A stretch of DNA of 20,974 bases from a virus, in the IMG/VR virus record IMGVR_UViG_3300014720_000228, positions 1 through 20,974 of that record, one strand, 5' to 3'. Below the pieces are notes generated by a model that saw only the letters and a program-made list of their open reading frames with translations, was not told the origin of the DNA and made no database searches. This document shows, in pieces, positions 822 to 20,974 of the stretch (within the stretch, counting starts at the first letter, position 1; every line of letters begins with the position of its first letter). The position numbers and the translations under genes are program-made.

Positions 822-1889
822 ATGAGCGCAATTAGTTTCGGCACGCAAGTGTCTCTCAAGCAAGCGGCAAACCTCATCCTTGCCACTCCGATGAACCGCT
901 ATCTGTTGCAGGGTGAGCCAGGAATCGGCAAAAGTTCTCTGCTTAAAACCCTATCCGCAAACCTCCCCGATCACGAGGTCGCTTACATTGATGTGCCCAA
1001 CATGGACTTGGGTGACATCGCTATGCCTGTGATTGATCGGGAGACTAAGACTACTTCGTACTATCCGAATAGTCGCTTCAAGATTCACTTGGGCAAACCC
1101 GTCATAACAATGTTAGATGAGTTCACCAAAGGCGCAGAGCCAATCAAAAACATGCTTCACCCCTTGCTTGAGGTAGCAAACCCTCGGCTTGGTGACATCT
1201 CAGTTCGGGAGGAGTCCATCGTGTTTCTGACTGGCAACCTAGGTACAGACAATGTAGGTGACAACCTCAAGGCGCATAGCCGCAACCGCATCATCCCTCT
1301 GACTGTGCGAAAACCGGACGCAGACGAGTGGCTTGAGTGGGCAGTAAATAACAACATCGAACCCGTGGTGATGGCTTGGGTTCGCCAGTTCCCGCACGCC
1401 TTGGCTTCCTACACGGATGAGGCGCAGGGTGACAACCCCTATATCTACAACCCCAAGAAGGTTCAGACTGCCTTTGTTTCTCCCCGATCACTGGAGCGAG
1501 TATCTAACATTGTTAGGGTACGGGGGAAGTTGGATGCCGATAGCCTGATAGCCGCAATGACTGGAGCGTTCGGTGAGGCGGCAAGCCGTGATATGCAAGC
1601 CTATGTTGAGTATCAAGATCAGTTGCCCACTTGGGAGAGCATCATCAAGAACCCCAAGACTGCTGATGTACCTACGAGCGCAGGTGCTTGTGCTGTACTG
1701 GTGTTCGGCGCAATCGCTAAGATCGCCAAGGACACAATGACTCCGTTCATGCACTACCTTGAGCGGTTCGAACCTGAGTGGCAAGCGTGCTTCGCTATCA
1801 ATGTGGCTAAGTCTCCGACCAAGCAGAGCATTGCGTTCAGTTCTCAGGCATTCGCTGACTGGGTTACGAAAAACGAGGACTTGCTATGA
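822..1889 (+). CDS. MoxR-type AAA+ ATPase
   Basis: A 355-residue single-domain AAA+ ATPase of the MoxR/AAA_5 type. Walker A is GEPGIGKS (31-38), Walker B ends in D99-E100 (VITMLDEF), sensor 1 is N139 in FLTGN, and arginine-finger candidates R154/R156 follow. A C-terminal helical region completes the usual length of about 300-360 residues. Known MoxR proteins act as ATP-driven chaperones or remodelling machines paired with a VWA-domain protein that recruits the target, and a VWA protein is encoded just downstream. The start is supported by AAGGA at 811-815, six bases before the ATG. The stop overlaps the next start (ATGA). It is first in the P1 unit, and palindrome copy 3 lies inside at 1504-1516. 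The substrate is unknown. Confidence 0.9.
   Translation: MSAISFGTQVSLKQAANLILATPMNRYLLQGEPGIGKSSLLKTLSANLPDHEVAYIDVPNMDLGDIAMPVIDRETKTTSYYPNSRFKIHLGKPVITMLDEFTKGAEPIKNMLHPLLEVANPRLGDISVREESIVFLTGNLGTDNVGDNLKAHSRNRIIPLTVRKPDADEWLEWAVNNNIEPVVMAWVRQFPHALASYTDEAQGDNPYIYNPKKVQTAFVSPRSLERVSNIVRVRGKLDADSLIAAMTGAFGEAASRDMQAYVEYQDQLPTWESIIKNPKTADVPTSAGACAVLVFGAIAKIAKDTMTPFMHYLERFEPEWQACFAINVAKSPTKQSIAFSSQAFADWVTKNEDLL
1504..1516. repeat. Palindrome copy 3, CTAACATTGTTAG
   Basis: Perfect copy inside the MoxR-type gene, codons reading S-N-I-V-R. Centre base T. Confidence 0.9.
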
Positions 1890-2104
1890 GCCTTGAAGAA
1901 CAAGTTATCAAAAAAGCTCGAGAGTATTTAATCTCCAAGGGCTACTCAAGTAGGGACTTCTTTACAACACTTACCAAGGAAACTAACAATGTTAGACAAA
2001 GCAGAACGAAGATTGAAGAAGGTGAAGATCACTCTGATGCGAAACCCCAAGTTCGCTCTGTGGTCGGGCATCCTGATGCTTGGCAAGACGGAGGTGGTCA
2101 ATAA
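1886..2104 (+). CDS. Small overlapping ORF, hypothetical
   Basis: A 72-residue ORF whose ATG overlaps the MoxR stop (ATGA) with GAGG at 1875-1878, so translational coupling is plausible. The first 34 codons (MSLEEQVIKKAREYLISKGY...) look like a genuine charged helical protein. From 1989 on, the ORF runs in another frame under the VWA gene and its composition turns poor (glycine- and aspartate-rich), as expected of a shadow frame. It may be a real small protein with a long overlap, a leader whose translation helps start the VWA gene, or the relic of an N-terminal extension of that gene now out of frame. Function unknown. Confidence 0.45.
   Translation: MSLEEQVIKKAREYLISKGYSSRDFFTTLTKETNNVRQSRTKIEEGEDHSDAKPQVRSVVGHPDAWQDGGGQ
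1983..1995. promoter_or_regulatory. Palindrome copy 4, spanning the VWA start codon
   Basis: Perfect CTAACAATGTTAG. The ATG at 1989-1991 is the start codon of the VWA gene, and the SD AAGGA at 1976-1980 is two bases upstream of the palindrome. A protein bound here on DNA, or a short 5-bp hairpin in RNA, would cover the translation start. Confidence 0.75.
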
Positions 2105-3179
2105 CATTCCGACAGCCTGTACTAATGGGCGTGACGAGAAGTATGGTCGGGAGTTCATCGAAGGGCTGGATGACAAGGAGTTGGGGTTCGTTGTGCTTCA
2201 CGAGAATCTCCACAAGGCGTTCCGTCACTTGTTCATTTGGCGCAAGTTGCACGAGGAAAATGCTCAGTTGGCTAATGCCGCTTGCGACTATGTGATTAAC
2301 CTGATGATTGTTAAGTGTGATCCGCAGGAGCAGGTTGTCGCTATGCCTCGCAAGAACGGCAAGGTCTACGGGCTACTCGACCAGCGGTTTGACAAGATGA
2401 ATGCCAAGCAGGTGTTCGACATCCTCAAGCAGGAGCAACAGGATGGGACTGGTGGCGGTGGTGATGAGGGCTTCGATGACCACGACTGGGATGGTGCGCA
2501 GGAGTTGAGCCAAGAGCAGGTCAAAGAGTTGGAGAAAGAGGTAGACCAAGCCTTGCGTCAAGGACAGATCGCTCACCAAAAAGTCAACGGCACTGGTGCT
2601 GGTGATATGGGGCGTGAGTTGGGTGACTTGCTTGAGCCTCAGATCGACTGGCGTGAGGTGTTGCGTGAGTTCGTCAAGTCCATCTGTAGTGCCAAGGATG
2701 CAAGTTCATGGCGCAGGGTGAACCGCAGATACTTACATGGTGATGTGTATATGCCTACGCTAATAGGTGAGAAGGTTGGGCGCATCGCTATCGGTATCGA
2801 CACTTCAGGGTCTATCGGTGGGCGTGAGTTAGATCGCTTTCTCTCCGAGGTCAAGTCTATTGCTGATGATGTTCACCCTCAGTTCGTTGATTTGATCTAC
2901 TGGGACAGTGAGGTGGCGGCACACGAAGAGTATGACGAGAGCAGCGTGGCTAACATTGTTAGTTCTACTAAGCCAAGGGGAGGCGGTGGCACTGACCCGA
3001 CAGCCATGATGCGTTACTTGAAAGAGAAGGGCATCACGCCGGAGTGCATTGTGATGCTTACGGATGGCTACATATCGGAATGGGGAGATGAATGGAATGC
3101 TCCAATACTTTGGACGATTTGCAATGAAGCATCGGATGTCTTTGCCCCATGCGGTAAGACTGTTCACATTAAGGACTAA
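1989..3179 (+). CDS. Zinc-peptidase-like/VWA-domain protein, MoxR partner
   Basis: A 396-residue two-part protein. The N-terminal part contains HENLH (71-75), an HExxH-type motif as in the DUF2201 metallopeptidase-like domain of VWA proteins. An acidic glycine-rich linker (about 152-170) and a helical segment follow. The C-terminal VWA domain has the full metal-ion-dependent adhesion site: DTSGS (271-275), T335 in GGGGTD, and D359 in LTDG. This architecture matches VWA proteins that work with MoxR ATPases, and the two genes lie side by side. Whether HENLH is catalytically active cannot be told from sequence. The start was chosen for AAGGA eight bases upstream; that start codon sits inside palindrome copy 4. 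Copy 5 lies within at 2950-2962. Confidence 0.88.
   Translation: MLDKAERRLKKVKITLMRNPKFALWSGILMLGKTEVVNNIPTACTNGRDEKYGREFIEGLDDKELGFVVLHENLHKAFRHLFIWRKLHEENAQLANAACDYVINLMIVKCDPQEQVVAMPRKNGKVYGLLDQRFDKMNAKQVFDILKQEQQDGTGGGGDEGFDDHDWDGAQELSQEQVKELEKEVDQALRQGQIAHQKVNGTGAGDMGRELGDLLEPQIDWREVLREFVKSICSAKDASSWRRVNRRYLHGDVYMPTLIGEKVGRIAIGIDTSGSIGGRELDRFLSEVKSIADDVHPQFVDLIYWDSEVAAHEEYDESSVANIVSSTKPRGGGGTDPTAMMRYLKEKGITPECIVMLTDGYISEWGDEWNAPILWTICNEASDVFAPCGKTVHIKD
2950..2962. repeat. Palindrome copy 5, CTAACATTGTTAG
   Basis: Perfect copy inside the VWA gene, codons reading A-N-I-V-S, between the DTSGS and GGTD parts of the metal site. Confidence 0.9.
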
Positions 3180-6432: not shown

Positions 6433-8252
6433 ATATTTTGACGATTGACTTTGAGACTTTTTACGACAAAGACTTTTCGTTGTCGAAGATGACCACGGAA
6501 GAATACATTCGCTCAAAGCAGTTTGAAGTGATTGGCGTAGCGGTCAAAGTTAACGACGGCCCGACCGAGTGGTTCAGTGGTACAAAAGAGCAGACTAAGT
6601 TTTGGCTTGGTAAATACAACTGGGCGCAGTCTGTTGCTGTTGCTCACAACGCTATGTTTGACATGGCTATTCTTAACTGGCGGTTTGGTTACAAGCCCAA
6701 GAAAATTGTGGATACGCTGTCAATGGCTAGAGCCATACACGGCACAGAAGTAGGTGGCAGTCTTGCGGTGCTTGCACAACACTACCAACTAGGTCAGAAA
6801 GGTACGGAGGTAATAAATGCGCTGGGTAAAAGAAGAATTGATTTTTCTGATGAGGACTTGTCCCGTTACGGCAGTTACTGTATTAACGACGTCGATCTTA
6901 CTTATAATCTTTTCGGTTGTCTTGCTGGTGACTTCCCTGTAAGCGAGTTAAACCTCATCGATCTAACCATCCGCATGTTCACTGAGCCTGTGCTTGAGTT
7001 AGATAAGAACACGTTGATTAGACATCTCACTGAAGTGCAAGACACTAAAGCCCGTCTGATGGATGGCATTGACGAGAACCGAGATGTGCTGATGAGCAAC
7101 CCACAGTTTGCTGAACTGCTACGCAAACAGAATGTAGAACCTCCGGTCAAGATTAGTCCTGCAACGGGCAAGGAGACTTACGCCTTCTCCAAGACAGACG
7201 AAGAGTTCAAAACCCTACTAGAACATGAGAACGATGTGGTGCAAGCACTTGTTGCCGCTCGGCTGGGGGTCAAATCAACTATCGAAGAAACTCGCACTGA
7301 GCGTTTTATCTCTATTGCGGATCGGGGTTCTTTACCTATCCCCCTACGCTACTATGCCGCACACACGGGTCGCTGGGGTGGTGATGACAAAGTAAACATG
7401 CAGAACCTACCCCGCTCGTCGCCCCTAAAGAAAGCCATCATTGCACCCAAGAGGCACATGGTGATTGACTCCGATTCATCACAGATTGAAGCCCGTACGC
7501 TGGCTTGGTTGGCAGAACAGAAAGACTTAGTTGAAGCGTTTGAGAGAGGTGAAGATGTATATAAGATCATGGCATCCGCGATATACGGCAAACCTGAAGA
7601 TCAGATTACGAAAGATGAACGCTTTGTGGGGAAAACTACGATCCTCGGAGCGGGGTACGGCATGGGGGCAATCAAGTTTAAGACTCAGCTTAAGACGTTC
7701 GGCGTCGATCTTTCGGAGGATGAGTGTAAAAGAATCATCTCGGTTTACCGAGAAACCTACCCCCGTATACCGCAACTGTGGCGCCAAGCAAGTAATGCGT
7801 TACTGGCTATTGCCAATGAACAAACTGCTCCTCTCGGGAGAGAAGGGGTACTCGCGGTGGAAGGTACTAAAGGTATTAGGTTGCCAAACAGTCTTTATAT
7901 CAAATACCCGAATCTGCGTCGATGGGTCAACGACCAAGGTAAAGAGGAATTGGTCTACGACACCAAGAAGGGGAAAGCGGTAATCCCTAACCGCATATAC
8001 GGCGGGAAGGTTATTGAGAACATCTGCCAAGCACTTGCTCGTATAGCCATAGGAGAGCAGATGCTAATGATCGCTAAGAAATACAAGGTGGTGATGACTG
8101 TGCATGACGCTGTTGCTTGTATCGTTCCCGACTCCGAAGCGGAAACGGGGCGTGAGTTTGTAGAGATGTGTATGCGTATTCGCCCTAAGTGGGCACCTGA
8201 TCTACCACTGAACTGTGAGTCAGGCGTAGGTCGTTCTTATGGAGACTGCTAA
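6429..8252 (+). CDS. Family A DNA polymerase with 3'-5' exonuclease
   Basis: 607 residues, the replicative polymerase. The N-terminal proofreading domain has Exo I D7-x-E9 (TIDFETF), Exo II D78 (HNAMFDMAIL) and Exo III around Y150/D154 (YCINDVDLT). The polymerase domain has motif A with D349 (DSSQIEAR), motif B R398-K402-Y410-G411 (KTTILGAGYG) and motif C H559-D560 (VHDAV). No 5'-3' exonuclease domain is present, as usual in phages. The residue matching E. coli Pol I F762 (four after the motif B lysine) is Leu406. The gene overlaps its neighbour at ATGA (6429-6432), with AAGGCGG upstream as SD. It is in the P2 unit and intact. Confidence 0.95.
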   Translation: MNILTIDFETFYDKDFSLSKMTTEEYIRSKQFEVIGVAVKVNDGPTEWFSGTKEQTKFWLGKYNWAQSVAVAHNAMFDMAILNWRFGYKPKKIVDTLSMARAIHGTEVGGSLAVLAQHYQLGQKGTEVINALGKRRIDFSDEDLSRYGSYCINDVDLTYNLFGCLAGDFPVSELNLIDLTIRMFTEPVLELDKNTLIRHLTEVQDTKARLMDGIDENRDVLMSNPQFAELLRKQNVEPPVKISPATGKETYAFSKTDEEFKTLLEHENDVVQALVAARLGVKSTIEETRTERFISIADRGSLPIPLRYYAAHTGRWGGDDKVNMQNLPRSSPLKKAIIAPKRHMVIDSDSSQIEARTLAWLAEQKDLVEAFERGEDVYKIMASAIYGKPEDQITKDERFVGKTTILGAGYGMGAIKFKTQLKTFGVDLSEDECKRIISVYRETYPRIPQLWRQASNALLAIANEQTAPLGREGVLAVEGTKGIRLPNSLYIKYPNLRRWVNDQGKEELVYDTKKGKAVIPNRIYGGKVIENICQALARIAIGEQMLMIAKKYKVVMTVHDAVACIVPDSEAETGREFVEMCMRIRPKWAPDLPLNCESGVGRSYGDC

Positions 8253-8461
8253 TGAAGATTAACAACCACATTGACTACACGATGCCCTACATGGCGGCAC
8301 AGCAAGCCCTCAAGAAACTGCAAGACGCCATGCTTGAGAAGCGGTATGACGATGCTAAGTTAGCCGCTATCGATGCAATTGCCGAAGTAAAACTAACCCT
8401 GAACTCAATCGTTAACGAAGAGGAGATATGGAAAAACAAAAACTTCATCCCTCGGGGATGA
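8252..8461 (+). CDS. Hypothetical small helical protein
   Basis: 69 residues. The ATG overlaps the polymerase stop (TAATG), with GGAG at 8241-8244 seven bases upstream. Almost entirely helical (AAQQALKKLQDAMLEKRYDDAKLAAIDAIAEVKLTLNSI), of a type common in phage genomes with unknown function. The tight coupling suggests co-expression with the polymerase. Confidence 0.65.
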   Translation: MKINNHIDYTMPYMAAQQALKKLQDAMLEKRYDDAKLAAIDAIAEVKLTLNSIVNEEEIWKNKNFIPRG

Positions 8462-8589
8462 CATGGCAACGCTGGGAGTGGCCCTTCAAAACGCCACAAG
8501 AGCGCAAGCTGGTAGCACAGTATTTCAAGGAGCAACACCACAACGAGAAGCGTGAGCAACTCGACAATCTTAAATCTGCACCATTTTAA
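8428..8589 (+). CDS. Hypothetical 53-aa protein
   Basis: A 53-codon ORF (MEKQKLHPSGMTWQRWEW...SAPF), with GAGG four bases before the ATG at 8428. A second possible start at 8458 overlaps the previous stop as ATGA and would give 43 residues. The frame fills an otherwise empty 140-bp gap between two genes. The composition, with a tryptophan-rich beginning (TWQRWEWPFKTP) and a charged helix (KLVAQYFKEQHHNEKREQ), looks like a real protein. Function unknown. Confidence 0.6.
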   Translation: MEKQKLHPSGMTWQRWEWPFKTPQERKLVAQYFKEQHHNEKREQLDNLKSAPF

Positions 8590-8600
8590 GGAGCAAACAA

Positions 8601-9047
8601 ATGAAAAGAGCAACAAGACGAGCCAAGGTTATTAACTTCATTCAGACCAACCCCGACGTTTCAGCTAAGGACGTAGCCAAGAAATTTAAGATGGCACTTC
8701 CCACCATCTATAACATCCGCAAGCAAGCGACTCTACCTTTGGTTGTTGATGACACAAGCGTACTTACGCAGAAGCAAGCCAATGAGGTTTATCAATCCAT
8801 GATTAAAAAGACTCCAGCTAGCAAAACCCGTGCTGTTCAGTACGGCGGCGACCACTACATGGCATTGGGTTTACAGCCTTGGGATGCGATGGAAGCGTGG
8901 ATGTCCCCCGAAGCATTTGCTGGTTTCCTGCGAGGCAACGTGATTAAGTACATTGCCCGTACCGAAAAGAAAGGCGGCTTGGAGGACTTACAAAAAGCCC
9001 GTCACTACCTCGACAAACTTGTTGAAGTTGTTGAAGCGCATCAGTAA
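8601..9047 (+). CDS. HTH-DUF3310 fusion protein
   Basis: 148 residues with an AAGGAGC SD (8588-8594). Residues about 14-43 (DVSAKDVAKKFKMALPTIYNIRKQA) read as a helix-turn-helix. Residues about 82-146 are a DUF3310 domain, with GGDHYMALGLQPWDAMEAW, GFLRGNVIKYIARTEKK and LEDLQKARHYLDKL. DUF3310 is widespread in tailed phages and also occurs in the T7 gene 1.7 nucleotide kinase. A nucleotide-metabolism link has been proposed, but the domain alone is not assigned a reaction here. The HTH suggests DNA binding as well. Confidence 0.8.
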   Translation: MKRATRRAKVINFIQTNPDVSAKDVAKKFKMALPTIYNIRKQATLPLVVDDTSVLTQKQANEVYQSMIKKTPASKTRAVQYGGDHYMALGLQPWDAMEAWMSPEAFAGFLRGNVIKYIARTEKKGGLEDLQKARHYLDKLVEVVEAHQ

Positions 9048-9061
9048 ACAAAAGGAAGATC

Positions 9062-9460
9062 ATGACTGACCTACGCAAAGCGGCAGAGCAGGCGTTAGAG
9101 GCTTTTGAAAAAATATACGAGGGATGCGGGGAGGTTAAAAAAGACAACTTAAGCAAGCACTCAAATGAGTTGGCTACGTTGGTGAGAAAAGACTGCATAC
9201 CTCAAATTAATGTACTACGCCAAGCACTAGTGCAACTAGAACAAAACGAAAGTTTTTTGTCTTGTTCTATTAAAGATCTTAACTTACACAAAAGATCAAT
9301 CAACTGTTTACGGGCGTACTCTATTGAAACAGTAGGTGAGTTGTGTGACAAATACCCTCATGAAATAAATAAAATACCCAATCTTGGCAAGTTATCTTTC
9401 AAAAACATTGTAGAAGCGTTAGCTGAGCATGGTTTAAGCCTCAAGAAGAAGAACACATGA
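9062..9460 (+). CDS. Phage protein with an RNA polymerase alpha-CTD-like domain
   Basis: 132 residues. Residues 1-62 are helical (MTDLRKAAEQALEAFEKIYE ... INVLRQALVQLEQ), a kind of N-terminal segment common in small phage proteins. Residues about 65-128 match the RNA polymerase alpha C-terminal domain: IKDLNLHKRSINCLRAYSIE, TVGELCDKYPHEINKIPNLGK, and a terminal ALAEHGLSLK. Against E. coli alpha, R265 corresponds to R78, N268 to N81, C269 to C82, G296 to G109 and S299 to S112; K298 is replaced by Leu111. It could bind upstream DNA or occupy the alpha-CTD's partners. The CTD-coding part is visibly A+T-richer than its neighbours, suggesting recent acquisition. SD AAGGA at 9052-9056. Confidence 0.8.
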   Translation: MTDLRKAAEQALEAFEKIYEGCGEVKKDNLSKHSNELATLVRKDCIPQINVLRQALVQLEQNESFLSCSIKDLNLHKRSINCLRAYSIETVGELCDKYPHEINKIPNLGKLSFKNIVEALAEHGLSLKKKNT

Positions 9461-9693
9461 ACGACGAACAAATCTTTGAACTAGCAGATAAGATTGGGTT
9501 CCAAGATGACTTTGGTCGGTGGAACTTCACGAGTGAGAACTTGCTGGACTTTGTGTTCATGGTTCAGAAGGCAGAGCGTGAATGGGTTGGGCTGACTAAA
9601 GAAGAAGCCAAAGAAATCTCAATGGCAAATCGTCCCTATGTAATAGACATGATTGCCGCATTGGAAGCCAAACTGAAGGAGAAGAACGCATGA
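9457..9693 (+). CDS. Hypothetical phage protein, 78 aa
   Basis: 78 residues, starting at ATGA over the previous stop and ending in ATGA over the next start. It begins MNDEQIFELADKIGFQDDFGRWNF, has a central helix and ends in a charged helix (MIAALEAKLKEKNA). The first segment resembles a small family frequent in proteobacterial phages, without known function. Confidence 0.65.
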   Translation: MNDEQIFELADKIGFQDDFGRWNFTSENLLDFVFMVQKAEREWVGLTKEEAKEISMANRPYVIDMIAALEAKLKEKNA

Positions 9694-9926
9694 AAGATAG
9701 AATCATCCTAGCAACAGTTGCATCAGGAATGGTGATCCTTGTTGCCGCCATATTTTTTATCGGTGTACACCATGGGTCCCGTGTTAAAGCCATGGACATG
9801 GTAGAAATCTTTGAAGCGGGGAAGAAGGAAGCCTTACGAGTTTCACCCCGTCCATCCCTAGAACTTGAAATTACTTGCGCCAACGTATGGGCTGGCAAGG
9901 TTGCACCACCGGAGGTATTGAAATGA
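9690..9926 (+). CDS. Small single-span membrane protein
   Basis: 78 residues with AAGGAG at 9676-9681 eight bases before the ATG. Residues about 5-25 (IILATVASGMVILVAAIFFIG) are one transmembrane helix. The remainder is soluble (AMDMVEIFEAGKKEAL...) and probably lies outside the cytoplasm or along the membrane. No lysis-gene hallmark such as a partner Rz1 gene is seen. Function unknown. Confidence 0.65.
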   Translation: MKDRIILATVASGMVILVAAIFFIGVHHGSRVKAMDMVEIFEAGKKEALRVSPRPSLELEITCANVWAGKVAPPEVLK

Positions 9927-10129
9927 ATAAATTACCTAAAGCCGATGTGAAACAGCGGCATGAACTTGCTGATGAGTTTTTTAAATTAGTTGAACGTAAG
10001 AAGATTAAAAACATAGTGCCTATAGTACTTGGGATCTACACGATGGCGCTATGGAAAAGCGGCTACGATAAAAAGTTTGTACTTAGCACTGCCGCTGATT
10101 TTATTGACACGTGGTACGCTAAACATTGA
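9923..10129 (+). CDS. Hypothetical small basic protein
   Basis: 68 residues. The start at 9923 overlaps the previous stop (ATGA) and has an excellent GGAGG seven bases upstream. An upstream in-frame start at 9875 is rejected because it lies deep in the previous gene. It is helical and lysine-rich (DEFFKLVERKKIKNIVPIVLGIYTMALWKSGYDKKFVLSTAADFIDTWY). A+T-rich codons resemble those of the alpha-CTD gene. No family recognised. Confidence 0.6.
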   Translation: MNKLPKADVKQRHELADEFFKLVERKKIKNIVPIVLGIYTMALWKSGYDKKFVLSTAADFIDTWYAKH

Positions 10130-10161
10130 GTGCATCGACGCAATCGATATAAGGTGGAAAC

Positions 10162-10353
10162 GTGACGCCCATTGAAAATAAAATTTGGCAGTATCTTGTG
10201 GAACACAAAACTCCTGTGCAAGCAAGCACGCTGGCAAAAAGATTTATTGTTAGCCAAGGGCATGTAAGGCGTGTACTTAAAGACCTTGCAGACAAACAGA
10301 CCCTTGACGTCATAGTAATTGGCACGAGCAAATTCTACAGGGTGAAAGAATGA
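10162..10353 (+). CDS. Winged-helix DNA-binding protein
   Basis: 63 residues from a GTG start with AAGGTGG at 10151-10157. Residues about 3-39 (IENKIWQYLVEHKTPVQAS, LAKRFIVSQGHVRRVLKDL) form a helix-turn-helix with the VSQGHVRRVLKDL recognition helix. The following strands (LDVIVIGTSKFYRVKE) form a wing. This is the size of a minimal winged-helix regulator. It is inside the P2 unit and may control P2/P3 or the palindrome sites, but nothing links it to a particular site. It follows a 32-bp gap with no other signal. Confidence 0.7.
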   Translation: MTPIENKIWQYLVEHKTPVQASTLAKRFIVSQGHVRRVLKDLADKQTLDVIVIGTSKFYRVKE

Positions 10354-10559
10354 ACAACGAAGCAATGATCCATGCATGGCAGAAGTGGACTGAGCCAATG
10401 CTCCCCGAAGCGCACAAAGGAACAGTGCCTACTGAGTCGCTGTATTACCAAGCGTTCAAGGCTGGCTGGGAGTCGGCTGTTGATGCGCAAGTTACCGCTA
10501 TGTCTTACGAGATCGAATCACTTGAGCAAAAACTCAGGGAAGAAAGAAACAAGAAATGA
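10350..10559 (+). CDS. Hypothetical phage protein, 69 aa
   Basis: 69 residues, coupled to both neighbours by ATGA overlaps. The first part contains HAWQKWTEPMLPE and SLYYQAFKAGWESAVDAQ, a pattern seen in many small phage proteins with a GW-AA-type motif. The C-terminal 25 residues are a coiled-coil-like helix (MSYEIESLEQKLREERNKK). Function unknown. Confidence 0.65.
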   Translation: MNNEAMIHAWQKWTEPMLPEAHKGTVPTESLYYQAFKAGWESAVDAQVTAMSYEIESLEQKLREERNKK

Positions 10560-11221
10560 CTACATGGTCTTACTCCTCTCTCAAAACATTTGAACAATGC
10601 CCTAAGAAGTACTACCACTTACGGGTAGTCAAGGATGTTAAAGATGAGGGTAACGATGCCACTATGTATGGTCAGGAGTTACACAAGGCGGCAGAGGAGT
10701 ACCTCAAAGAGGGTAAGCCTATCCCCCCTAAATTTCAGTTTATCCAAGATGTACTCGATGCGATCAAAGACATCCCCGGTGAAAAACACTGTGAGTTAAA
10801 ACTGGGTGTCAAGCAAACGGACGCTGGCTACGAGCCTTGCGGCTTCTTCGATAAAAATGTGTGGTGGCGGGGCATAGGCGACGTAGTTGTGGTACAAGAT
10901 GATGTGGCTTTCTCTCTTGACTACAAGACCAGCAAAAACGCCAAGTACGCAGACCTCAAACAATTGGACATACTAGCCGCCGCACTATTCACGCACTTCC
11001 CACAGATCAAGAAGGTCAAGTCTGCCTTGGCATTCGTGGTGAGTAACGAGTTCATCCGCAAGGAGCACTTTGCTGAGATGCGGGACTCATACTTTGCTAC
11101 GTTCCAACCAGAACTAGACAGGCTTGCTACTGCTGAAGAAACAGGAGTGTGGAACACCAATACCGGACCGTTGTGCAAATTTTGCCCAGTAACTAGCTGT
11201 GAACACAACAGGAGACGTTGA
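10556..11221 (+). CDS. RecB/Cas4-like PD-(D/E)XK nuclease with Fe-S cysteines
   Basis: 221 residues. SYSSLKTFEQCPKKYY (5-20) is the typical N-terminal signature of the PD-(D/E)XK_1 family, followed by YGQELHKAAEEYL (38-50) with the conserved histidine. The nuclease core has E80, D109 (GIGDVVVV), D122-x-K124 (LDYKTSK) and Q136. Cys15 together with Cys207, Cys210 and Cys215 (CKFCPVTSC) makes the four-cysteine set that holds an iron-sulfur cluster in Cas4 and AddB-like nucleases. Expected activity is exonucleolytic DNA processing in phage recombination or replication. No cas1 or CRISPR array is nearby, so this is not a CRISPR adaptation gene. Confidence 0.85.
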   Translation: MTTWSYSSLKTFEQCPKKYYHLRVVKDVKDEGNDATMYGQELHKAAEEYLKEGKPIPPKFQFIQDVLDAIKDIPGEKHCELKLGVKQTDAGYEPCGFFDKNVWWRGIGDVVVVQDDVAFSLDYKTSKNAKYADLKQLDILAAALFTHFPQIKKVKSALAFVVSNEFIRKEHFAEMRDSYFATFQPELDRLATAEETGVWNTNTGPLCKFCPVTSCEHNRRR

Positions 11222-11550
11222 TGAGCGGATACAAAAGTTCAGAAGAAGTCCCAATTCGTTTCCACGGATATTGTTCATACCCAAATTGCAGGAATAGAAA
11301 GATAGATGGAGACCGACCTTTTGTAAGTTGGATGGGAGTTCGATTCCCAATTGACGAAGCCTACCAATACCTCTCTCCACAAGCTAAACTAATGGCAGTT
11401 GCAAACCCTAGCGACTACGTTGAAAAATTTGGGCATTACTCTATAAATATAGAGCTACACCCAGAATGTGCTGCGGAATGGGCTATGCACTTAACTAGGG
11501 ATGCATTTGAAGCTGATGGTGGAGTAATTACAAAAATGGGGAAACGTTAA
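11221..11550 (+). CDS. Hypothetical protein with a possible zinc site
   Basis: 109 residues. I start at ATG 11221 (one-base overlap, TGATG) with AGGAG six bases upstream rather than at the TTG three bases earlier. C18-x4-C23 (YCSYPNC) and a later H-x2-C (HPEC, about 80-83) could bind one zinc ion. The rest has no recognisable fold. Codon use is A+T-rich compared with the nuclease before it. Confidence 0.6.
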   Translation: MSGYKSSEEVPIRFHGYCSYPNCRNRKIDGDRPFVSWMGVRFPIDEAYQYLSPQAKLMAVANPSDYVEKFGHYSINIELHPECAAEWAMHLTRDAFEADGGVITKMGKR

Positions 11551-18462: not shown

Positions 18463-18531
18463 GGAAGAATCGCTCCTTCCTGTTTCCTTGGTGGTCTTTG
18501 ACACTCCCGGCCTAAAAACCGGGGGTTTTTT
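18463..18531 (+). ncRNA. Candidate small RNA with an anti-Shine-Dalgarno loop
   Basis: The stretch between the last + gene and the terminator can give an RNA of about 69 nt, either from P4 or by processing of the P3 mRNA. It would begin with hairpin GGAAG (18463-18467)/CTTCC (18476-18480), continue with a pyrimidine-rich single-stranded stretch, and end in the terminator hairpin and U run, the usual layout of bacterial small RNAs. The hairpin loop and its 3' arm contain AATCGCTCCTT (18468-18478). This is an exact complement of the SD region at 4502-4512, and 18467-18477 is an exact complement of 13804-13814. Expression is unproven. Confidence 0.4.
18504..18531 (+). terminator. Intrinsic terminator of the P3 unit
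   Basis: CTCCCGG (18504-18510) pairs with CCGGGGG (18519-18525) with one G-T wobble around an 8-nt loop, followed by six T (18526-18531). It overlaps the stop codon of the convergent - strand gene. On the - strand the hairpin is not followed by a U run, so it should act only on + transcripts. Confidence 0.85.
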
Positions 18532-20974
18532 ATTTCTGAGGCACCTTGGACTTTTCACCTAATTCAAAAATCGTATCTGCCATGCGTGGGTCAACAGCAA
18601 GACCTTCTTCGGCAAGTGCCCTGCGTTTTGCCCTACCTGACAACGAACCCAACAATGTGTCTTGAGTTATAGGAAGCACGTATTGATTTTTATAGTTGTA
18701 CCTATCCATCTCAAGCAAAGCCTTTTCAATAGCCTCATCGTTCTTATCTGTAGGATCTTCGTCATATTTTATGTACGCCTTGTCAATGTCTCGTAGTACC
18801 TTAGTCCGATCTTTTTCAATTTGCATGACCATCTTACGGGCCATAAAGTTAAACTTTTGAATTTCAGCAACTTCGGTGCTTTGGAAACCAAGAGTCTGAC
18901 CTATCAACTTACCGGTTGTGTACCACTCTGCATTACGAATCTCATCGCCTCGTGAAGTTTTAAGACCCTCATCGCCTAACCTGACCGCAGTAAATGCACC
19001 ACGGAAGAATGCAGGTACTAATTTAGATGCACCTCTATTAAACTCACCGTTGTTAAAGTCATCAAGCGACGAGAACATTTGTTCACCCATGGAACCAAAC
19101 GGTCCTGTGAGGCTAAACACAAACTGTTGGAACCCTTCTTTGGAACTTGCGGAAGGCATATCTTCTCTGAACCACATACCGTCAAGACTGGTTGAGGCAC
19201 TAATGTTTAAATCGGTCAGTGCAGATATTGGACCCATTTTGACAGAACGCTGGAGCATCAATGCTTGTTCTTGGGTCAACCCCATGGCGGTAGCGAGGTC
19301 GCTTCCCGGCCCAAAGTAAGTTGGGATAAACCACTCACGGAACCAAATATCAAGATTGCGCTTACCTAACGGGTTGCCATCATCATTCTCGTCATAGAAC
19401 TCATCAGCTTCTTCATCCTCCATATCCGGACGAAGTGCTTCGCGGATGCCCTCAGCTAAACCTAGGATTGCACTGTATCCCGGCATACCGGTAACACCAG
19501 CAAACAAACCTGTCATGCCAAGAGTGCCAAAGAATTTAATGGCAGCGTCGCGCTTACCTTCTTTATTTAGGTAAGGCAGCATTCCGTAGAAGTTACGCAC
19601 CAGATAAGAAGTCATCTGGAGAGGGAAGGTCATGAACTGTGTACCAAGCTTGGTAACAAAGTTAGCCTTCATGAGACGAGGCTTGTTGTACTGCGAATAG
19701 TTAAACAACGAGTCGTAGACCATCTTTGTCGCTACGTTAATGGCTTTATTCGTGGCCTCGTTGGGATTCAATCCCTGTTTTATACCCCGTGCGTACTCCA
19801 ACTCAAACGAGGACATGTACATAATTTCACGGGTAATACGCTCAGAGTGGTAAAATGCACCACTAATAAAGTTCATCGTTGCTCGTGTACTACGACTTAG
19901 AAAGCCTTTGTACTCTGCGGTTGGCACTTTCGCCCGTGACGTCATATCTGACGCATAGGTAGACATAAACAAGTCTTTGTCTTGGGCTGCTTGCCATGCA
20001 CGCTTTAGCTGCGCACGATATGTAAGATCTGGATGCTTATTGACGTAGCGGGAGTCGTTTATCGACGGCTCCCCCCAGATAGTAATTACGTTACCCGCAG
20101 CGTCTCGTTTTGTAGTGCCTAGCTTGTTAAACAGGTTGGAATAACGAGCAGTAACTTTAAGAGTTTCGGCAGTGCCGTACTCAGCCATTAGAGTGGGTAG
20201 GCCCACAATCGGCAACTGAGTCATTTGAACAAGAGCAGACTTAGGCGAGGTCAGCATGTAGTAAAACACCGCCTGATTACCAATGTTTGCCAACTGGTCT
20301 AGGTTCATCTCACCCGGAACGGCAGGAGTCATCTCTGCTTGAGCGCGTATAGCAATCTCATCTACAAAGGTGCTCAGTTTAAGGGCGTCCGGATTGCCCG
20401 CCAATTCAGCATAAGCCGAACCAATTCCTAGTCTGATCTGGTCGGAGTAAGCTAGTCTAGCCAATTGATTAGCCGCTGTGTGTTGGGAGACAATAAAGTT
20501 GCGAAGCACATCCCCACTGAAACCGGTCTTACCTTGTCTGTGAGTAAACTTACGACGGATGTCTCGGTCAGGTAGCGTCATCAAATACATTTGATAGACC
20601 TGATCTTTAATAGCATCTACGTCAGTAATGCCAGCTTTGCCGGTAACCGGATTGACAACGCTTCCATCCTCAAGTGCTTTGAAGATGTCTTTAAGCATTT
20701 GGCTTGACTCAACTACTTCACTACGAATCTGATTTATGTCGTCTCCGACTTCAAAACTCTGGTCAGCAAGTACGTCCTCATATTTTTTACCTGCTTCTTC
20801 AGCGCGTTTGCGTGCGTAATTATTACGAGCAGTGGCTGATTCAAAGAGGTAGAACTCGCCCGACTTGCCTTTACCGATTCGAAGCCAGAAGTTGCCATAG
20901 CGCATCAAGGGGAAGTACAGCCCTAGCTGCTGAGCTTCTTGGAAACTTTGAGTAATCTGAGCGATCAACTTACC
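18530..20974 (-). CDS. C-terminal part of a giant PLxRFG-type phage protein
   Basis: At least 814 residues. The frame stays open to the right edge (G-K-L before the first displayed TTG), so the start lies outside. LYFPLMRYGNFWLRIGK near the edge matches the hallmark of 'PLxRFG domain-containing' phage proteins, which are very long (often thousands of residues) and thought to be polyvalent virion or ejected proteins. Further in are long helical stretches, a hydrophobic glycine-rich segment (FFGTLGMTGLFAGVTGMPGY, about residues 475-500 of the visible part) and an acidic loop (MEDEEADEFYDENDDG). It is the only - strand gene, convergent with the replication genes, as expected for a late structural region. 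Stop TAA at 18530-18532. Confidence 0.85.
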   Translation of the reverse strand, partial: GKLIAQITQSFQEAQQLGLYFPLMRYGNFWLRIGKGKSGEFYLFESATARNNYARKRAEEAGKKYEDVLADQSFEVGDDINQIRSEVVESSQMLKDIFKALEDGSVVNPVTGKAGITDVDAIKDQVYQMYLMTLPDRDIRRKFTHRQGKTGFSGDVLRNFIVSQHTAANQLARLAYSDQIRLGIGSAYAELAGNPDALKLSTFVDEIAIRAQAEMTPAVPGEMNLDQLANIGNQAVFYYMLTSPKSALVQMTQLPIVGLPTLMAEYGTAETLKVTARYSNLFNKLGTTKRDAAGNVITIWGEPSINDSRYVNKHPDLTYRAQLKRAWQAAQDKDLFMSTYASDMTSRAKVPTAEYKGFLSRSTRATMNFISGAFYHSERITREIMYMSSFELEYARGIKQGLNPNEATNKAINVATKMVYDSLFNYSQYNKPRLMKANFVTKLGTQFMTFPLQMTSYLVRNFYGMLPYLNKEGKRDAAIKFFGTLGMTGLFAGVTGMPGYSAILGLAEGIREALRPDMEDEEADEFYDENDDGNPLGKRNLDIWFREWFIPTYFGPGSDLATAMGLTQEQALMLQRSVKMGPISALTDLNISASTSLDGMWFREDMPSASSKEGFQQFVFSLTGPFGSMGEQMFSSLDDFNNGEFNRGASKLVPAFFRGAFTAVRLGDEGLKTSRGDEIRNAEWYTTGKLIGQTLGFQSTEVAEIQKFNFMARKMVMQIEKDRTKVLRDIDKAYIKYDEDPTDKNDEAIEKALLEMDRYNYKNQYVLPITQDTLLGSLSGRAKRRALAEEGLAVDPRMADTIFELGEKSKVPQK

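Follow-up and report, generated by a model that had tools for sequence, protein, structure and literature searches.

The Locus and Its Neighbourhood

The window analysed here, that is, the whole stretch of 20,974 nucleotides of IMG/VR virus record IMGVR_UViG_3300014720_000228, carries on its plus strand an open reading frame for a 132-aa protein (9062–9460, stop included), which was annotated as an alpha-CTD fusion on the basis of the reading frame and a match to Pfam PF03118. The frame starts with the ATG at 9062 in a good start context, downstream of the ribosome-site-like stretch AAAGGAAG, and ends with the TGA at 9458–9460. Its N-terminal module (residues 1–62, 9062–9247), delimited from the predicted model and from relatives of the N half, is a predicted helical hairpin. 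The alpha-CTD (residues 61–122, 9242–9427), placed by the PF03118 match, composition and fold, is A+T-rich. Two short DNA stretches, referred to below as seams, also lie in the gene: the 5′ seam CTACGCCAAGCACTAGTGCAA (9215–9235), identified by a DNA pattern search of IMG/VR, encodes LRQALVQ, and the 3′ seam AAGAAGAAGAACACATGA (9443–9460), identified by DNA comparison, holds a ribosome-site-like stretch and the start overlap for the next gene. This next gene (9457–9693, plus strand) overlaps the end of the alpha-CTD frame by ATGA and has, as judged from its reading frame and from relatives of the N module, a C-terminal part of the WVGLTKEE...KLKEKNA type.

The families that could be assigned in the window on the same strand include a DNA polymerase, an exonuclease, a helicase and a primase. 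A second IMG/VR record holds a 9,651-base copy that is 99.96% identical to the window (four mismatches); since it comes from nearly the same virus, it does not count as independent evidence. Bacterial contamination of the contig was judged unlikely in view of these phage neighbours and of the copy in another record. A search with the window's DNA polymerase did not reveal a clear host; a polymerase 65% identical to it was seen in L131 (CP070693.1), a Dehalococcoidia MAG chromosome, as contamination or a provirus. Elsewhere in the window, an 812-aa open reading frame on the minus strand (18530–20968) has a DarB-like antirestriction PHROG match (phrog_10089, E 1.2e-62), with an alignment confined to the C-terminal end of a far longer profile. 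At 822–3179 an ATPase (phrog_1297) precedes a protein in which a DTSGSIGG motif occurs, and we take the two to resemble a MoxR/VWA pair.

Identity and Fold of the C-Terminal Domain

Residues 61–122 match PF03118 (RNA_pol_A_CTD) with an E value of 1.3e-16 and 60.5 bits, above the gathering cut-off of 23.8. RpoA accounts for 50 of the 52 PDB sequence matches listed up to E 1; a viral capsid protein accounts for the remaining pair (E 0.54 and 0.57). The structure predicted for the 132-aa protein (mean pLDDT 87) consists of helices at residues 2–25 and 32–66 followed by the alpha-CTD fold; its top match among solved structures is the E. coli alpha-CTD (Z 13.9, rmsd 0.9 Å over 67 residues), and the B. 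subtilis domain gives Z 13.5 with an rmsd of 0.7 over 67 residues. The alpha-CTD proposed in the first-pass annotation is thereby borne out, and the interval given for it there (9254–9460) roughly fits the domain together with the tail, with the Pfam match starting a little further upstream, at 9242. That annotation had named a helix-hairpin-helix protein closer to DNA repair domains as the competing identification. This was rejected, as RpoA tops the structural comparison, RpoA or plastid polymerase alpha makes up 47 of the 50 structural matches listed, and the best helix-hairpin-helix match other than RpoA among them, Dmc1, reaches Z 9.2; moreover, no HHH Pfam match was found in the protein up to E 1.

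A full or degraded RpoA was likewise rejected: the Pfam search found the alpha-NTD to be absent from the 132-aa protein, and the NCBIfam RpoA models match the alpha-CTD only, all of them below their own cut-offs. The N half is thus helical and not the alpha assembly domain, as had been claimed, with a hairpin in the predicted model. In PHROGs the protein has no match at E 0.01 and a weak one, at E 0.12, to phrog_28674 ('RNA polymerase').

DNA-Contact and Surface Residues

Alignment with the E. coli domain agrees with the earlier reading that the equivalents of R265, N268, C269, G296 and S299 are kept and that K298 is Leu; in addition, E302 is replaced by Asn. K298, S299 and E302 are invariant across the 57 RpoA rows compared, which form a biased sample composed of the 30 top-scoring loci of a PF03118 search in 150 genomes, 20 hand-chosen rows, four from a further search, two mislabelled phage records and E. 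coli. R265, N268, N294 and G296 are kept in all 57 of these rows and in all 13 phage-type alpha-CTDs examined. K298 is absent in 12 of the 13 (Goe8 has Arg), L018 keeping the Lys. Five of them (L103, L104, L107, L108 and L123) were found by a pattern that demanded Leu or Phe codons at 298 and are not free evidence for the loss, because the search favoured it, whereas L046, L125, L284, L073, Mazun and Goe8 came from searches free of this bias. The 13 rows represent about eight lineages, and in the fair count, by lineage, K298 is lost in seven of about eight.

At E. coli positions 258, 261, 285, 286, 287 and 302 the window protein has K, N, Y, P, H and N, respectively, where the 57 RpoA rows mostly have D/E, E/D, T, E, a small or polar residue and E. 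Positions 258–261 and 285–288 of E. coli alpha are those that contact sigma and CRP. Since K298 and most of these contact residues are lost, a DNA-binding role appears likelier than titration of activators, although the RpoA of the host may differ too. The replacement of K298 and E302 also means that DNA affinity may be low.

The N-Terminal Module and the Seams

Alignment of the N half retrieved 22 loci. In 14 of them (L207–L220) it forms short proteins or is followed by short tails only, and in seven (L200–L206) it carries other C parts, which in L201–L206 are of the WxGLT...KLKEKN type; an alpha-CTD follows it in the window's virus only. Judged from these sequences, the N half is a phage module that occurs elsewhere alone or with other C-terminal parts. 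The C part of the next gene in the window is found elsewhere fused to this same module, and as that gene is of the WVGLT...KLKEKNA type, the alpha-CTD sits where such parts usually follow.

The junction DNA CTACGCCAAGCACTAGYGCAA (window 9215–9235; Y at pattern position 17) occurs exactly in 37 IMG/VR stretches, a raw count given without a chance expectation. All 37 are small-protein genes in the same frame in which both N and C parts vary, with 26 distinct C parts; an EKN tail is present in 26 of the 37 and a GLT-like part in 21, while the alpha-CTD is restricted to the window's virus. Counting the window's virus, 20 of the 37 loci terminate in AAGGAGAAGAACACATGA or in a sequence that differs from it at one position, and the window's 3′ seam is of the latter sort, with one mismatch. 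In L125, the stop codon of the alpha-CTD starts TAAGGAGAAGAACAGTG, the same ribosome-site stretch as in the window's 3′ seam. With its N module and LRQALAQ seam on one side and a KEKNT-type tail on the other, the window protein falls within a mosaic LRQALAQ family. This is a large family of small phage proteins (among them window 9457–9693 and L221–L256), in which LRQALAQ and KLKEKNT seams recur around variable parts.

The simplest reading of these patterns would be a cassette exchanged between two conserved DNA stretches. The shared seams could also reflect common descent together with coding and ribosome-site constraint, rather than recombination sites.

Phage Relatives, Composition and Selection

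Of 80 virus records whose DNA polymerases are related, six contain a PF03118 match (3/40 and 3/40), one of the six being the window's virus; the ten records that come next in polymerase similarity (L004–L013) all lack one, for which reason the gene is considered accessory. Its best independent relative is L125, 58% identical in the domain. L125, the L046 group and L284 are, like the window gene, alpha-CTD fusions with an A+T-rich domain, but their N parts differ from that of the window: the one in L125 is of the phrog_2201 type, an MKIHVEFNS-type start is shared by L046, L103, L104, L107, L108, L123/L280 and L283, and L284 has an N part of yet another type. Alpha-CTDs of the same kind thus follow N-terminal parts of no fewer than four types. 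Another alpha-CTD-like type, with an insertion and located at the protein start, was seen in the related phages L018 (7944–8414) and L073 (1860–2240), where the genes adjoin a homologue of window gene 5989 (recognised by eye from an HPEEF stretch).

A query with the window protein matched 22 named phage records. Microbacterium phage Mazun gp26 and Bacillus phage Goe8 (two records) encode small alpha-CTD fusions; several further matches are rpoA by annotation, and the two unannotated ones that were read encode full RpoA. L085 and L086 (MT837142.1 and MT835508.1), which carry the label Bacteriophage sp., contain complete bacterial RpoA genes, and bacterial DNA is therefore present in phage collections. 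In 150 genomes of one phylum, PF03118 was matched in 144, with nearly all of the matches listed being of RpoA length; in one bacterial genome (G157:C46:1282-1458) the match lies within a 1,659-aa open frame, which is not RpoA length. Among 49 pattern matches in genome contigs, no bacterial relatives of the alpha-CTD alignment were found.

For the tree, 66 rows were gathered and 50 used, including 42 distinct RpoA rows; duplicates and the fragment L020 were excluded. The window and L125 pair at 98/91, which is the sole firm phage grouping. A split that sets six phage rows apart from the rest reaches 93/63 and is not firm; branches are long and the alignment has 68 columns.

The GC content of the C half is 0.343, compared to 0.42–0.52 in the larger coding sequences of the window; of 3,685 in-frame stretches of the same length taken from 13 other window coding sequences, none has a GC content that low, and when the codon use of the phage itself is resampled, a GC3 this low arises at P 0.0008. 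The A+T-rich coding described in the first-pass annotation is therefore real. It recurs in L125 (0.348 in a locus of 0.441) and L046 (0.287 in a locus of 0.426), and a drop over the alpha-CTD is seen in L104, L108, L283 and L284 as well, but is absent in Mazun and Goe8. A+T richness thus belongs to the domains of the window's phage group, which supports transfer as a unit. The suggestion of capture from a different genome consequently holds as module shuffling among phages, given the four or more N parts and the recurring A+T richness, and finds no support as to the ultimate donor.

Purifying selection is indicated by the alpha-CTDs of L046 and L104 (dS 0.49, dN 0.077); between the window and L125, dN is 0.31 and dS is saturated. 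Between L108 and L103 the N parts hardly differ (dS 0.02), yet the domains have diverged (dS 0.28), a contrast that points to exchange.

Proposed Function and Alternatives

Because the N part occurs with varied C parts, the domain occurs behind unrelated N parts, DNA seams flank it on both sides and its A+T richness recurs, the gene is, as far as sequence comparison goes, a shuffled alpha-CTD cassette rather than a degraded RpoA. This cassette is probably DNA-binding. As to its function, the reading we favour, with a probability of about 0.4, is that of an alpha-CTD freed from the polymerase that would bind the minor groove of A+T-rich DNA, either competing at UP-element-like sites or tethering the partner of the hairpin. 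The product would be a two-part early-region protein, a helical hairpin joined to an RpoA-derived alpha-CTD, which the co-orientation of the genes suggests is expressed together with the replication genes. Untied from the alpha dimer, the alpha-CTD would still bind the minor groove and, by occupying UP-element-like or AT-rich sites, would weaken host promoters or hold the hairpin's partner there, while the hairpin may dimerise or dock to a common partner. A lone alpha-CTD, lacking dimerisation or an activator, may bind DNA weakly.

The same domain might instead act as a decoy that titrates host transcription factors, such as class I activators and Spx-like or NusA-type partners, and its predicted fold hardly departs from that seen in alpha-CTD structures determined together with CAP, Spx and sigma region 4. 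However, the residues at 258, 261, 285–287 and 302 differ from those of the 57 RpoA rows, and even though the RpoA of the host may depart from these rows in its turn, we consider titration unlikely. Equally doubtful is a recruiting role, in which the alpha-CTD would label phage promoters and the hairpin would dock to the host polymerase or a phage factor, thus increasing phage transcription: the hairpin does recur with variable C parts, as a docking part would, yet the surroundings of the gene showed no array of promoters, a consensus scan of 8200–11300 giving one promoter-like site against 4.0 expected, with no promoter in the A+T-rich half. The variety of C parts behind the N module, together with the restriction of the alpha-CTD to one virus among the 22 N-module and 37 seam loci, would also suit a neutral mosaic product, in which the domain is by-catch of recombination without a selected function. 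Purifying selection on related phage alpha-CTDs and the retention of R265 and N268 in 13 of 13 speak against this, and make it the least probable of these explanations.

The minor-groove binder could be part of a wider arrangement, which we put forward as a speculative extension that is more likely wrong than right. One group of uncultured phages would keep a cassette system of small early proteins, made up of a helical part up to the 21-base seam, a variable effector, and a seam with the ribosome site and start, into which host-derived domains such as the alpha-CTD are swapped as effectors; the K298-less alpha-CTD would then be a polymerase-free binder of AT-rich DNA and a dominant-negative competitor at host promoters.

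Comparison with Known Systems

The window protein has in common with the RpoA C-terminal domain (PF03118) its sequence, fold and the five conserved residues named above, and differs from RpoA in the missing alpha-NTD, in Leu for K298 and Asn for E302, and in other residues at the sigma and CRP contact positions. With the mosaic LRQALAQ...KLKEKNT proteins it shares the 21-base 5′ seam, the 3′ tail (at most one mismatch) and, in some of them, the N module; their C part, in contrast, is of the WVGLT type or another, the alpha-CTD occurring only in the window's virus in the sets examined.

Several proteins of 111–135 aa in BFVD are named 'RNA polymerase, alpha subunit, C-terminal', so the kind is already known by annotation. 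Three from uncultured Caudovirales phages (A0A6J5MNY7, A0A6J5QDR9 and A0A6J5M7I6; 128–135 aa) have the alpha-CTD fold like the window protein but are 24–39% identical to it, the best aligned one at 29% over 127 columns, and their names are annotation. No functional study of such small phage proteins was found in the one open-licence library searched.

The same domain of the host is a target of other phages: Alt and ModA of T4 are described as modifying R265 of the alpha-CTD (PMC2988021), and Rac of phiKMV-like phages as leading to its removal (PMC7552054). Host promoter control is hence a plausible target, although these cases prove nothing for the window protein. The window gene offers a concrete, testable example of domains being shuffled, at short DNA seams that are conserved, in proteins of unknown function. 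Known phage tactics alter the host alpha-CTD or take it away; a polymerase-free, shuffled copy of the phage's own would be another way to control host promoters.
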